From assembly GCA_900320955.1 (NCBI GenBank), contig ONUN01000013.1, forward strand, positions 1 to 38,970: 38,970 nt of DNA, given 5' to 3'. Below the pieces are notes generated by a model. It was not told where the DNA came from and did no database searches. It saw only the letters and a program-made list of their open reading frames with translations. This DNA is from an uncultured Methanobrevibacter sp. (GTDB taxonomy: Archaea; Methanobacteriota; Methanobacteria; Methanobacteriales; Methanobacteriaceae). This document shows, one piece after another, positions 21,677-27,248 of the stretch; within the stretch, counting starts at the first letter, position 1; the number at the start of each line of letters is the position of its first letter. The position numbers and the translations under genes are program-made.

Positions 21677-22444
21677 ATGAGTGATTCGGAGTTAACAAAT
21701 ACAGAATTAATAGACTCTTTTGACTGCAATATCATATCTAAGAAATTGGCATCCATAAACAATAATGTCAGATTCTCAATTTTGGAAATTTTAAGGGATT
21801 ACAGCAAAGAACCCTTATATTCTCGTGAAATAAATTCGATTCTTTTAAATAAGTATAACATTTCCATAACAGTTCAAATGCTTGGACAACACCTGAAGCA
21901 GCTTGTCGAATCTGAGCTGATTGAAGAGGGGGCTGTCAAAAAAGAAGTAGTAAATAAAGTTGGACAAAGAAATGTCAATGGATATTCATTGAAGGACAAT
22001 GCCTTTGAAGATTTGTTTTTGGAAATATCCTTCTTTTCCGATGAAATCTTAACATTCTTTGATTTGCACAAAATCCATCTTGCGTTGGAAGAGGGTTCTT
22101 GCATAATAACAATATTCAATGGGCCTGATAAGGGTAAAACATTCATGGTGCACAAAGATGAATGCATATTGATTGGTCGTAAAAGCAGTTTCACAGATGA
22201 AGACTTTGAATTTCCCGTGATTCTGTTGGACAATGAATATGAAACAGTTTCAAATGTTTCAAAACCTCATTTAAAGCTATTCAATAATCAAGACAAATGG
22301 TATGTTGTTGATGGCGGAAGTTCAAACGGAACCTTTATAAAAGATATTGAAATTCCAATAAACAAAGCTGTTGAAGTTAAAAATAACTCTTTTGTAAAAT
22401 TATCCAGGGGCAATGGCGGAGCCGTAATTCACGTTTCCTATTAG
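21677..22444 (+). CDS. winged-helix plus FHA domain protein
   Basis: A 255-residue two-domain protein. Residues about 25-110 form a winged-helix DNA-binding-like region (VRFSILEILRDYSKEPLYSR ... LGQHLKQLVESELIEEG). Residues about 140-255 are a forkhead-associated domain with every phosphothreonine-binding landmark: LIGRKS (GR 167-168), SKPH (S195, H198) and SSNGTF (N217). It should therefore read threonine phosphorylation and turn it into transcription control or scaffolding. It lies nine bases upstream of the giant kinase-Hsp70 gene, the obvious writer of the mark. GGAGAG ribosome site. The coupling is inference; the domains are clear. Confidence 0.88.
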   Translation: MSDSELTNTELIDSFDCNIISKKLASINNNVRFSILEILRDYSKEPLYSREINSILLNKYNISITVQMLGQHLKQLVESELIEEGAVKKEVVNKVGQRNVNGYSLKDNAFEDLFLEISFFSDEILTFFDLHKIHLALEEGSCIITIFNGPDKGKTFMVHKDECILIGRKSSFTDEDFEFPVILLDNEYETVSNVSKPHLKLFNNQDKWYVVDGGSSNGTFIKDIEIPINKAVEVKNNSFVKLSRGNGGAVIHVSY

Positions 22445-22453
22445 AATTTGGTG

Positions 22454-25400
22454 ATGTTGTTGGATTTGGATGATATTAAAACTTTGGTTGGCGAATTCTT
22501 CAATGGCCAATATGAAGTTAAAAAGTTTTTAGGCGAAGGATCGTTTGCCAAGGTTTATCTTGTAAAGCATAATTATCTTGAAGACCTTCGGGCAATGAAA
22601 ATCATCAAGGAGCCTGTAAGTCCTACAACCAACATCAAATCAGTATTCAAAGAAGTGATGCTTGCAACCAAATTGAGGCATGAAAATATCATAAGCATAT
22701 ATGATGCAGGAATCATGTCAACATTCAGGCAAAATAAAAAAGATTTGGCTTTTTTTGTAATGGAGTACGTACAGGGCGGAGATTTGGAACAATATCTGAA
22801 TTCCTTTATAAATTCAGATATTCTGATGCCTATCGATAAGGTGCTTACTTTAATAAAACAGATATTGATGGGATTGAACACACTTCACATGTCAAATCCT
22901 CCAATAATACACAGGGATTTAAAGCTTAACAATATCCTGCTTACTTTTGATAACTTTGGTGAAATTATCGTTAAAATTTCCGATTTTGGCTTTTCAAAGG
23001 AGGTTACAACAGGAATTTCAGACATTGACATAGTGGGCACAAGACCGTATATGGCTCCCGAATGCTTTAACAAAGAAATATCCACCATGACTGATATTTA
23101 TGCGGTAGGTGTTATTTTTTATCAGCTTTTGACAAATAACTTTCCATGTGACATTGGGGAGTTTTCCATGGAAGACCTGCTGGAATTGAATCCTTGGAAG
23201 ACACAATTCAAACCTCCAAGCCACTACAATAAAAATGTTTCAACAAATCTTGATGAAATTGTCATGAAGTGTCTGCAAACAAATCCGAAGGACAGATATC
23301 AAAATGCTTCCGAACTATTGTATGATGTTGAAATAGCCATCAATAAACTGGAACCTGCTGGTTATATGGATAACGCAAATGAGTCTATTGAGGTCTCTTG
23401 TGATTATCTTATCAATGATTCTCTTAAGTATGCCTTCAGGTTGGCTAAAAGGGAAAACGGATTGGATAGTGCTATTGAAATTTTGGAAAATGAATTGTTG
23501 AATGATTATGAAGTCCGCCAGCATTATGGTGAAACGTTAAAGATGTGGAAATCTCAAAATCCAGATGTAAAACTAATTTCAAAAGCGTTCACCGTTAATC
23601 TCGGTGGAAAAAATTATTATTTGGCAATCGATTTGGTGAAGGAGGCAATAGCTTACAATCCTTCAATAAAAAATAAATTCGGCCATTATATTGATTTGTG
23701 GAAAATTTTCATTGACCTGTCAAAAGATGTCAATCTGATTAAGGCAATCCTTTCGCTGGAAGAGCTTATGGAAAAAAATAAGCATGTCATGGAGATGTAT
23801 GCTCCAATTATCAACACCCTTAAAACTTATTCTGTTGAAGAGATTGTTGCACAGTCAAATCATTTGGTCAATTTGAACAATCTGGTTGATGCAGCCAATC
23901 TGATGGAATTTGCAGTCGTTTTTGATTCAAGTATCAGGGACGCTTATGAATATAGGTTATCTTTATGGAAACAGAATATGAATCATGAATTTAAGGTATC
24001 CAATAAGTTCAAGGACAATACCATTGACTATGCAATTGATTTGGGAACTACCGATTCCATTCTTTCATACTATAATGGTGGAAATCCTATTGTTATCAAA
24101 AATTATCTTACTGGTGATGATTTTACACCTTCAGCTGTTTTGATTGATGGGGATAACAATATTCATGTAGGCGAGGATGCTAAAAATGCCTTGTGGGCTG
24201 ATGATAGGAATGCAGTTTCCGAGTTCAAGCATGATATGGGATTATCGATTCCTTTCAGTTTTCAAAAATCTTCACGTATAATGCAGCCTGAAGAGCTATC
24301 TGCGGAAATTCTGAAAGATTTGAGAACTTCTGCATATGAGCAGCTTGGCGTAAATGTTGAGCATGCGGTCATTTGCGTTCCTGTAAATTCAAACTACATT
24401 AAAACCAAAGCGATAAATGATGCTGCAGACCTTGCCGGATTGAGATCACATAGTCTTTTGCTGGAACCGGTTGCAGTTTCAATAGCATATGATTTGAAGG
24501 AAAATAATTGGCTTATTTATGATTTGGGCGGTGGCACTTTCAGTCTTTCACTGATTAGGTATTCCTGTGGTGAAATTGATAGTTTGAACAGTATCAGACT
24601 GGATGATTTTGGAGGAAATGCTTTTGACTGGGCTATTGTCGATGAAATTTTTGTACCCAAGATAGCCAAACAGTTAAAACTGGAAGATTTCAGGCGAGAC
24701 AACAATGGATATAAGAGAATTTTTTCTAAGCTTAAGGTCGTTGCCGAAAATTCTAAAAAAGAATTGTCAAAAGGTAGCAGTGCAGATATATTTATTCATA
24801 ATCTTTTCATTGATTATGACTTCACCTATACTTTAACAAGAGATATCTTCTTGGAAATTATTGAACCTTTGATTAAACCTACATTTAATTTAGTACAAAA
24901 GTTATTAAATGATAACTCTCTTTCAAGCGATGATATTGATAAGGTCATTCTTGTAGGTGGGTCATGCACAAGTCCGATAGTTCAGGAGTTAATCAATGAA
25001 AATTTGAAAATGGACCTTGAACATAGCATAAACCCGCTTACCGTTGTTGCCAAAGGAGCGTCAATATATGCTGGCATGCTTAAAAAGCCTAATGTTGACA
25101 TTTCATCAAATCCATTTTCAATGATGTTAAATATCCAGAAAGATTATGTCAGCGGAAGGGTCTTTACGATAGATGACAAATATTCATTTCTGGGTTTTTA
25201 TATTGAATTCATCAACGACCAATACTCGACTGGAAAAGTTCCAATCAATCTAGACGGCACGTTTAATGTGCCAATATCATATGGAGATTATGAAATAGTA
25301 TTGTATGACCATAATAAAAAAGTCGAAATCGATGAAAAGTCCCCGATTTTAGTTAAAAACGATAAAATGTTCATCAAGTTTTTTGACAATGCATTTTCAT

Positions 25401-25993
25401 CAAATTGCACCGTCATGTCTGAAATGGATATCCTGGATAAATACGAGTATTTATTAAAATCAATCGATTATCTCAATGAGTATTCCCGTTCAATAAAGGG
25501 CATAGAAATCATAGATTATATAGATCGGTTGATTGAATTGGTTAAAATCGATAAAAGGGCAATGATGTTGGCTTCAATATATCTGGATTATCTTGAAGAC
25601 ATAATAAATCGGGAAACGTTCAAATTGAACTTTTCAATGATTTTGGAGAATGTGAAAAATAAGCTGAATATTGCCAATCAGGAAAACCTCTTTGAAACAG
25701 TTGATTTCAATAGGGATTTGGACATTGCAGTCAATACAAATGACTTTGGCAAATTAAATAAGATTTACAATAATTTGATTGGGGAATATGTCAAATTAAA
25801 CCGGGAGGAAGTTATTATTTCTAGCTTCTTCAATTTAAAAACCGAGGGTATTTACGATAAAAATAGGCAGTCATTTGAAGATTTATCCAAAAGAGCATCA
25901 GTTGCTTTAGATATGCACAATTATGATGATCTGGCGGTTATTGTTAAGGAGTTATATAAAATTGATGAAAGGTTTGCAGGTGATATTTCATGA
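22454..25993 (+). CDS. Ser/Thr protein kinase - helical repeat - Hsp70 ATPase fusion
   Basis: A cytosolic protein of about 1179 residues. The N-terminal eukaryotic-type kinase domain (about 15-295) is complete: glycine loop GEGSFAKVYLV, lysine in RAMKIIKE, HRDLKLNNIL, DFGFSKE, GTRPYMAPE. A middle region (about 310-515) holds repeated helices ending in YGETLKMWK, FGHYIDLWK and YRLSLWK, TPR-like. A Hsp70/DnaK nucleotide-binding domain follows (about 525-890): IDLGTTDS, IYDLGGGTFSLS near 690, VILVGGSCTSP near 833. The last 290 residues have a beta-rich part and a helical tail in place of a canonical substrate-binding domain. The ATG at 22454 is preferred over the TTG at 22448. Coupled to the FHA gene before it and the micro-ORF after it. 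No transmembrane segment. Confidence 0.93.
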   Translation: MLLDLDDIKTLVGEFFNGQYEVKKFLGEGSFAKVYLVKHNYLEDLRAMKIIKEPVSPTTNIKSVFKEVMLATKLRHENIISIYDAGIMSTFRQNKKDLAFFVMEYVQGGDLEQYLNSFINSDILMPIDKVLTLIKQILMGLNTLHMSNPPIIHRDLKLNNILLTFDNFGEIIVKISDFGFSKEVTTGISDIDIVGTRPYMAPECFNKEISTMTDIYAVGVIFYQLLTNNFPCDIGEFSMEDLLELNPWKTQFKPPSHYNKNVSTNLDEIVMKCLQTNPKDRYQNASELLYDVEIAINKLEPAGYMDNANESIEVSCDYLINDSLKYAFRLAKRENGLDSAIEILENELLNDYEVRQHYGETLKMWKSQNPDVKLISKAFTVNLGGKNYYLAIDLVKEAIAYNPSIKNKFGHYIDLWKIFIDLSKDVNLIKAILSLEELMEKNKHVMEMYAPIINTLKTYSVEEIVAQSNHLVNLNNLVDAANLMEFAVVFDSSIRDAYEYRLSLWKQNMNHEFKVSNKFKDNTIDYAIDLGTTDSILSYYNGGNPIVIKNYLTGDDFTPSAVLIDGDNNIHVGEDAKNALWADDRNAVSEFKHDMGLSIPFSFQKSSRIMQPEELSAEILKDLRTSAYEQLGVNVEHAVICVPVNSNYIKTKAINDAADLAGLRSHSLLLEPVAVSIAYDLKENNWLIYDLGGGTFSLSLIRYSCGEIDSLNSIRLDDFGGNAFDWAIVDEIFVPKIAKQLKLEDFRRDNNGYKRIFSKLKVVAENSKKELSKGSSADIFIHNLFIDYDFTYTLTRDIFLEIIEPLIKPTFNLVQKLLNDNSLSSDDIDKVILVGGSCTSPIVQELINENLKMDLEHSINPLTVVAKGASIYAGMLKKPNVDISSNPFSMMLNIQKDYVSGRVFTIDDKYSFLGFYIEFINDQYSTGKVPINLDGTFNVPISYGDYEIVLYDHNKKVEIDEKSPILVKNDKMFIKFFDNAFSSNCTVMSEMDILDKYEYLLKSIDYLNEYSRSIKGIEIIDYIDRLIELVKIDKRAMMLASIYLDYLEDIINRETFKLNFSMILENVKNKLNIANQENLFETVDFNRDLDIAVNTNDFGKLNKIYNNLIGEYVKLNREEVIISSFFNLKTEGIYDKNRQSFEDLSKRASVALDMHNYDDLAVIVKELYKIDERFAGDIS

Positions 25994-26118
25994 AAAACGA
26001 AAAGAATTCTATAAAGGCAACAATTGTTTTAAATAAAAGCAGCTCCGATGGATTTCTGGAGTATCCCTTTGATTTGAAACAGGTAATTGAATCATTGGAT
26101 GACATGTCCAAAGAATGA
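25990..26118 (+). CDS. 42-residue protein coupled to the kinase-Hsp70 gene
   Basis: The ATG overlaps the kinase-Hsp70 stop as ATGA. The 42-residue product (starts MKNEKNSIKATIVLNKSSSD, ends DDMSKE) is soluble, and a run of nine T follows the stop at once. The tight overlap and terminator position make it a real gene rather than chance. It could be a regulator or subunit of the fusion protein; several Ser residues could be kinase targets. No family recognised. Confidence 0.65.
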   Translation: MKNEKNSIKATIVLNKSSSDGFLEYPFDLKQVIESLDDMSKE

Positions 26119-26222: not shown

Positions 26223-27248
26223 ATGGGTTACAAAAGGAATAAATTTAAAATAAACAATGTAAAAATAAATATTATTTTTACGCTGCTGTTTATTTCCAAT
26301 ATTATTCTATATTTGGCATTCATTAACAATTTCTATTCTGACAAAAATTTCCAGATTCCTTTTGGAACATTGAATAATATTATTACAATGGTTTCGGCAA
26401 TCATAATTCTAGGATTCATTTCGACAAGGCTTCCCCAATTTAGAAAACTGGGGGACAGTTCAATTTATGAAGTATGTTATTTGATTATCATTGGAATATT
26501 GAGCATGGTTGTTTCTTATTTTAATAAGTCATCAAATACTGAAGCCATCATTGCTCCATATATGGAAATGTTTAAGGTGCTGTCAGTAATGCTGATATTC
26601 ATGCTGATTACAACCAAGATAAAACCTTTTAAAAATATTATGAGAGGAAAGGTTACAAGGAAAAATCAGTTTCTGTGCCTTGTCATATTTTCCATTTTGG
26701 GATGCATTGCTTCATTATATCATGTATATGTCGGTGAAACTCCAGCAAATGTTAGGACTTTAATAATCATGATTGGCGGATTGTTTGGAGGGCCTTTTGT
26801 AGGTATACCTTCCGGAATAATTGCGGGAGTATTCAGATTTGCACAGGGCGGTGTGACTGCATTTCCATGTGCCATTGCAACTGTTTTATCTGGAGTTGTG
26901 GGTAGTCTGGTATACGTATGGAACGGTAAAAAAATTCTTAGGAGCCTACATTCAATATTGCTGATGTTCTATTTCATTGGATTTGAAATGCTTTTAATTG
27001 TAATTTTAACTCCAAACGAAATTTCTTTTCAATATGTGGAAGATATCTATCCTTTGATGTTGTTTGCATCAGTGATGGGAATGGCATTGTTTTTAATGAT
27101 TGTCAGGGAACAGACACGCCCTAAAAAAGAAATTTCCTATGAAGAATTGAGAATGAATGAAATGGAAAATACATTGGAAGAACACATTGACAGAATCGAA
27201 GAGCTTGAAGAGGAAATCCAAGAGCTAAAAAATAAAGATTCAGATTAG
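26223..27248 (+). CDS. LytS-type 5TM receptor protein without kinase domain
   Basis: A 341-residue membrane protein with about eight hydrophobic segments. Residues about 175-235 hold the signature of the 5TMR-LYT sensor domain of LytS-like histidine kinases: NVRTLIIMIGGLFGGPFVGI, SGIIAGVFRFAQGGVTAFPC and the Gly-rich helix after it. In place of histidine kinase or GGDEF output the protein ends in a charged coiled coil (about 305-338, MENTLEEHIDRIEELEEEIQ). It is therefore an orphan receptor or a scaffold, perhaps signalling by protein contact. It follows the kinase operon after a terminator, with a TATA-like element around 26165-26175, so it is a separate transcript. Ends by overlapping the convergent TPR-HIRAN gene. 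Confidence 0.82.
   Translation: MGYKRNKFKINNVKINIIFTLLFISNIILYLAFINNFYSDKNFQIPFGTLNNIITMVSAIIILGFISTRLPQFRKLGDSSIYEVCYLIIIGILSMVVSYFNKSSNTEAIIAPYMEMFKVLSVMLIFMLITTKIKPFKNIMRGKVTRKNQFLCLVIFSILGCIASLYHVYVGETPANVRTLIIMIGGLFGGPFVGIPSGIIAGVFRFAQGGVTAFPCAIATVLSGVVGSLVYVWNGKKILRSLHSILLMFYFIGFEMLLIVILTPNEISFQYVEDIYPLMLFASVMGMALFLMIVREQTRPKKEISYEELRMNEMENTLEEHIDRIEELEEEIQELKNKDSD

Follow-up and report, generated by a model that had tools for sequence, protein, structure and literature searches.

The locus described here raises the question of what a Ser/Thr kinase fused to an Hsp70-derived part does in an archaeon, when its gene stands between that of an FHA protein with a winged helix and a micro-ORF. 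It lies in the window, i.e. the whole 38,970-nt stretch analysed (contig ONUN01000013.1), which belongs to the genome of an uncultured Methanobrevibacter sp. (2.29 Mb, 84% complete), and the three genes treated below are on its forward strand. Three ORFs reported earlier from the letters of the window alone (hereafter the sequence-only reading) were recovered at the same coordinates. They encode a 255-aa winged-helix and FHA protein (HTH-FHA; 21677..22444), a kinase–alpha-solenoid–Hsp70-derived fusion (22448..25993) and a 42-aa micro-protein (25990..26118), whose ORF shares 4 nt (ATGA) with the end of the fusion ORF. Counted from the ATG at 22454, the fusion has 1179 aa, and from the TTG at 22448 it has 1181, either start being possible, and the three genes form a single operon. 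Our tentative answer, held with slightly less than even confidence, is that the module is a phosphothreonine switch controlling transcription, in which the N-terminal tail of the regulator and the micro-protein would serve as FHA ligands and the Hsp70-derived part as a slow scaffold. Few archaeal Ser/Thr signalling systems are known with kinase, reader and output gene together, and here these are adjacent and the candidate phosphosite is invariant. The organisms concerned are methanogens of the gut and rumen.

The gene order HTH-FHA, fusion, micro-protein was kept in 17/17 intact fusion loci, all from Methanobrevibacter-type genomes and including that of the window, to whose fusion the proteins were 52-66% identical. 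A search for kinase-Hsp70 fusions beside FHA genes placed the HTH-FHA gene immediately 5' of the kinase wherever the flank was covered, and the same was true of compact split and kinase-only versions. At the genome level, HTH-FHA proteins were present in 29/29 genomes of the family that carry the helical domain (solenoid) of the kinase, compared to 7/110 without it (Fisher 1e-23), although the genomes compared are kin and Fisher values of co-occurrence therefore overstate independence. Most genomes of the genus have RtcB-SIS genes 5' of the block and a PPP-type metallophosphatase and HD-RyR proteins 3' of it, and that so many genomes use the same site points to vertical inheritance. The window and L051, its nearest relative, have the three genes by themselves, at a different position in the genome. 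Presence is patchy, with broken copies at L035, L067 and L143. Among relatives that bear a name, the fusion or the helical domain was found in uncultured Methanobrevibacter, some of them sampled from the gut or rumen, and the split version in a Methanosphaera, from which the family was taken as Methanobacteriaceae. A pattern scan of the genome collection, restricted in its reach, matched only Methanobrevibacter and Methanosphaera, and the phylum search, with just 13 genomes from beyond the family, tells us little about wider spread. An origin from phages was dropped, with no relative among the viral contigs searched, as was one from plasmids, where the matches were to kinase and Hsp70 in general only.

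The fusion begins with a Hanks-type Ser/Thr kinase domain (22511..23308; Pfam Pkinase 4e-51, residues 22-287). All the marks of this class that had been listed for the window (VAIK Lys, HRD, DFG, APE) are present, and K49, E67, HRD153-155, D177/G179 and APE201-203 are invariant in the 17 fusions except for one DFG variant (DLG in L060). Lack of a conserved neighbourhood and an inactive kinase had been named beforehand as grounds for refutation, and the module withstood both, as judged from gene order and catalytic residues. The TPR-like helices proposed to follow were borne out by AlphaFold, which within residues 300-520 gave an alpha-solenoid at 322-507 (23417..23974); it has no Pfam TPR match and aligns with the split kinases, to which it is common. 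The model continues with a nucleotide-binding domain (526-873), a beta domain (888-982) and a helical bundle (990-1170), while its kinase part is of low confidence, the alignment being shallow. PADLOC matches of the fusion (PD-T4-6, mad6) cover the kinase domain region, and membership in the known phage-defence kinases (PD-T4-6, MADS6) was rejected, the likeness being confined to that domain. A weaker MkoA match runs on into the solenoid, and no other component of the MkoA system was seen in the neighbourhood.

The Hsp70 nucleotide-binding domain (24029..25072) was identified by Pfam (HSP70, E 4e-65, covering only profile positions 4-377 of 599, which correspond to this domain), by comparison with BiP/DnaK in the PDB (E down to 7e-48) and by Foldseek against the DnaK nucleotide-binding domain (TMt 0.84-0.87). 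The sequence-only reading took its key residues to be complete. The DLGTT, DLGGGT and GGS motifs are indeed there, but the catalytic Asp that corresponds to D206 of Hsc70 (GGGTF-D) is replaced by Ser in the window (24542..24544) and by N, S, T or H in 17/17 fusions, compared to D in 16/16 stand-alone relatives. The equivalents of Hsc70 D10, K71, E175, D199 and T204 are kept, with a single E175D, and the full catalytic set (D10, K71, E175, D199, T204, D206) is not complete in any of the 17 fusions. Hydrolysis by Hsc70 is slowed by substitutions of D206. A structure of the D206S mutant exists in the PDB (1qqn).

Beyond this domain, no recognisable substrate-binding domain or lid had been noted, a claim that could be upheld in part. 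In the AlphaFold model, the C-terminal part holds one beta domain and a helical bundle. The former (25115..25399) is an accessory domain, the homologue of the first of the beta domains in the stand-alone relatives, and SBD-beta (roughly 120 residues), which there comes after it, is absent in all fusions. A lid-like helical part is present, however, since the C-terminal bundle (25421..25963) aligns with the helical C-terminus (lid region) of the full-length stand-alone Hsp70s and is its homologue. Remodelling of unfolded clients is unlikely because SBD-beta is missing, and fast hydrolysis is unlikely because the D206 equivalent is missing. The earlier idea of an Hsp70 ATPase that times or remodels the complex can thus be narrowed to a possible slow nucleotide-state sensor, and the Hsp70 part is read here as a putative nucleotide-state scaffold, not a foldase.

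The fusion arose once; in the Hsp70 tree all fusions formed one clade (SH-aLRT 99). Compared to the stand-alone relatives, they retain the nucleotide-binding domain, the accessory beta domain and the C-terminal helices and lose SBD-beta, and both this deletion and the loss of D206 are confined to them. Two split arrangements were found: a compact one, in which separate neighbouring genes encode FHA protein, kinase and Hsp70 (L034, L036, L070), and a larger operon encoding a ClpB-like ATPase, a kinase, two uncharacterised proteins, an Hsp70 and a phosphatase (L039 and others). At L039:2096-13803, the products are a ClpB-like ATPase, a kinase, a 592-aa protein with CarboxypepD_reg domains, a 267-aa protein, an Hsp70, a PPP-type phosphatase and a TPR-M78 protein, and loci resembling this operon were L033, L038, L040-L044, L068 and L069. 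We know of no description of a ClpB-kinase-Hsp70 operon of the L039 type. The company of a ClpB-like disaggregase and the SBD-beta retained by these stand-alone relatives would suit a protein quality-control sensor, whose Hsp70 part binds misfolded proteins through the beta domain and helical bundle and so activates the kinase. As all fusions have lost both SBD-beta and the D206-equivalent Asp, which speaks against such a role, we consider it highly improbable. What the fusions do represent is an Hsp70 that lost its client-binding domain and was put to new use within a kinase protein, with intact split relatives that allow comparison.

The HTH-FHA protein consists, according to AlphaFold and Pfam, of a disordered tail (residues 1-12), a winged helix (14-105), a helical linker and an FHA domain at about 144-252 (Pfam FHA, E 8e-8, residues 165-242). 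For the winged helix the sequence gave only a weak match (HTH_20, E 0.009, under the cut-off), but it was modelled as a helix-helix-wing fold with a pLDDT of about 80-92, the mean of the whole model being 80 and the tail lying below 50. Top Foldseek matches of the FHA domain were GarA (PknB complex), OdhI, DgcB-FHA with its own phospho-tail, and ArnA, while the protein scored under the NCBIfam OdhI cut-off (18.9 of 200 bits). The FHA residues pointed out earlier (GR, SxxH, NG) are all present in the window; across the family, R168, S192, K196, H198 and N217-G218 are invariant, but the Ser of SxxH (S195) varies (S/G/A/D/L).

Two features of the self-binding FHA switches of the GarA/OdhI/DgcB type are found in HTH-FHA, namely the fold with its phosphate-binding residues and a disordered N-terminal tail with a Thr and a hydrophobic residue at +3. 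In the window the tail motif is T9-E-L-I-D13 (21701..21715), and it is our candidate for a phospho-Thr site and FHA ligand (pT+3 hydrophobic); the general form, Thr-x-x-[ILV]-Asp, lies inside the disordered tail. The Thr is invariant in 20 aligned tails that are otherwise variable, with Asp at +4 in 19/20. Of the HTH-FHA proteins linked to a kinase, 27/27 have it, among them that of L070 with an identity of 38%, compared to 2/16 orphans. As statistical proof this association was dropped after phylogenetic correction, with few independent events left (three phylogenetic pairs, about two for and none against, not significant), and that the tail Thr goes with kinase linkage is suggestive only. 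L125 and L126 carry the motif yet have no adjoining kinase.

The 42-residue ORF at the fusion stop, also part of the sequence-only reading, is a real gene, because a homologue (32-57% identity) follows 17/17 intact fusions and because substitutions are concentrated at third codon positions (2753/1791/4012 at positions 1/2/3); a chance ORF was ruled out on the same grounds. T11, L14, N15, F22 and L23 are invariant in the 17 sequences. The most conserved block is T-[VIL]-[VIL]-L-N (T11-I-V-L-N in the window, 26020-26034), whose Thr-x-x-Leu-Asn matches the tail motif of the regulator. Scored with a PSSM of the FHA tails, it reached a mean of 6.8 bits, against 1.97 ± 0.64 for shuffled sequences (maximum 4.4 in 1000). 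Here, then, is a short protein whose conserved core matches a proposed FHA ligand. The micro-protein was found beside fusions only and not in the split systems, and is thus not needed for the core switch. The same restriction could mean that it binds the fusion rather than the FHA protein. It would then be a docking subunit or inhibitor of the kinase, with the FHA domain docking on the autophosphorylated activation loop VTTGISDIDIVGT (T-T-x-I), which does hold conserved Thr residues with a hydrophobic +3, and the tail Thr reduced to a secondary site. This would leave unexplained the likeness of the micro-protein and FHA-tail motifs as well as the invariant Thr in an otherwise variable tail, and we regard it as rather unlikely.

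In the phosphothreonine switch that we prefer, the kinase would phosphorylate Thr-x-x-hydrophobic-Asp/Asn in the disordered tail of HTH-FHA and in the micro-protein, its alpha-solenoid probably serving as a guide in the way that the TPR domain serves PknG. The FHA domain would bind the phosphorylated tail, its own or that of a partner (as in GarA, OdhI and DgcB), or the phosphorylated micro-protein, which would be a competing or alternative ligand, and the oligomeric state of the regulator, as well as the binding of its winged helix to DNA, would depend on which ligand fills the FHA pocket. Without its peptide-binding domain and one catalytic Asp, the Hsp70-derived part may act as a slow nucleotide-gated scaffold coupling energy or stress state to kinase activity, and the linked PPP-type phosphatase, where present, would reset the switch. 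Phosphorylation, FHA binding and DNA binding are steps that we infer, as are DNA targets, a direction of effect and a signal. The proposal that the kinase marks, the FHA domain reads and transcription changes is strengthened by the candidate motifs in the tail and the micro-protein. A bolder version, which we find rather doubtful, makes the micro-protein a genetically encoded phospho-peptide messenger whose phospho-form displaces the regulator's own phospho-tail from the FHA pocket, and the weakened, SBD-less Hsp70 a nucleotide-gated timer of the kinase. No conserved palindrome that might be an operator was shared by the genomes 5' of the HTH-FHA gene, and AT-rich inverted repeats were seen in the window only.

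PPP-type phosphatases were found in 22/29 genomes with the kinase solenoid, compared to 5/110 without, and directly 3' of the micro-protein in about 12 genomes; none was found in the window genome (84% complete). HD-RyR proteins showed a similar distribution (25/29 compared to 8/110). In the window genome, HD-RyR genes are on another contig, G000:C123 (L164:161-7291), beside membrane TIR-domain genes, and one of the two is broken into two frames. The HD-RyR co-occurrence and the vicinity of TIR-domain genes, together with the patchy presence and broken copies of the module, would fit a conflict or defence system in which HD-RyR proteins, kinase-Hsp70 and the FHA regulator would detect invasion or damage and respond by turning on effectors, and Hsp70, kinase, FHA and calcineurin-type domains do recur in predicted conflict systems (PMC7159879). 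The core operon, however, is without nuclease or toxin, the PADLOC matches concern the kinase domain, no related viral contig was found and the constant position in many genomes is a sign of vertical inheritance; such a role is in our view unlikely. RyR was not mentioned in the conflict-system papers compared.

Among known systems, the switch resembles PknG/PknB with GarA/OdhI of Actinobacteria, where a Ser/Thr kinase acts on an FHA protein whose N-terminal phospho-Thr is bound by its own FHA domain (PMC8546545, PMC6733907); the C-terminal TPR domain next to the PknG kinase has been proposed to couple a signal to FHA-substrate phosphorylation (PMC8546545). In contrast to the winged-helix protein of the module, GarA and OdhI have no DNA-binding domain, act on 2-oxoglutarate enzymes and have no Hsp70, and a micro-protein with the tail motif is not described for them (PMC8546545, PMC6733907). 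In DgcB of Bdellovibrio, the FHA domain reads its own phosphorylated N-terminal tail and switches the output domain, the +3 residue being key to recognition (PMC6733907); there the output is a GGDEF domain, here a winged helix. An archaeal FHA protein also controls transcription in ArnA-ArnB of Sulfolobales, with the kinases ArnC/ArnD and PP2A (PMC10470591, PMC5300886, PMC7472852, PMC6509490). ArnA pairs with a vWA protein there, and no vWA gene was found among the conserved neighbours of the kinase-Hsp70 module. To our knowledge, ArnA-ArnB lacks a kinase-Hsp70 fusion as well as any tail or micro-protein of this kind.

The coupling of kinase and Hsp70 recurs. A Kinase+HSP70 protein of Pirellula (gi 32474490), with a kinase and then an Hsp70-like domain in one protein, was reported from sequence only, its neighbourhood not being described in the consulted part of that paper (Krupa and Srinivasan 2005, PMC1262709). 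Halomicrobium WP_153555030.1 (plasmid pLC1Hm-01) likewise unites Hsp70 and kinase in one archaeal protein, but in reverse order, with GrpE between them and an Hsp70 match that reaches the substrate-binding part (574 of 599); it is 1160 aa long (L161:5593-9075) and annotated as GrpE only. On a Haliscomenobacter plasmid, an Hsp70 adjoins a kinase-AAA protein. The view that the module is not a characterised system holds for the whole combination, while the Pirellula and Halomicrobium proteins precede it as regards the joining of the two domains; linked HTH-FHA, shared Thr motif, micro-protein and decayed Hsp70 were not found combined in the literature searched.

HTH-FHA genes were also observed in other settings. 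A second HTH-FHA and kinase pair of the window genome (G000:C84; L045:4885-6865) keeps the tail Thr, and its kinase, without solenoid or Hsp70, is a divergent non-RD enzyme (HGD for HRD, AQE for APE) and perhaps weakly active. Orphan HTH-FHA genes are expanded in genomes G111 and G114, with several more copies per genome (L131-L133, L135-L137), some of which adjoin large putative surface proteins; the tail Thr motif is absent there. At L127:3443-7546, TIR-domain genes lie about 2 kb upstream of an orphan HTH-FHA gene. Many HTH-FHA genes, whether accompanied by a kinase or not, adjoin a gene for a TPR protein that has about 320 aa and is akin to L142:39-1019 (L125, L126, L131, L135, L141, L142, L144 and others). 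Directly downstream of the operon, the window encodes a 5TM-5TMR_LYT membrane protein (26223-27248), probably a mere neighbour, and an ORF of similar size also follows the operon in the nearest relative, L051.
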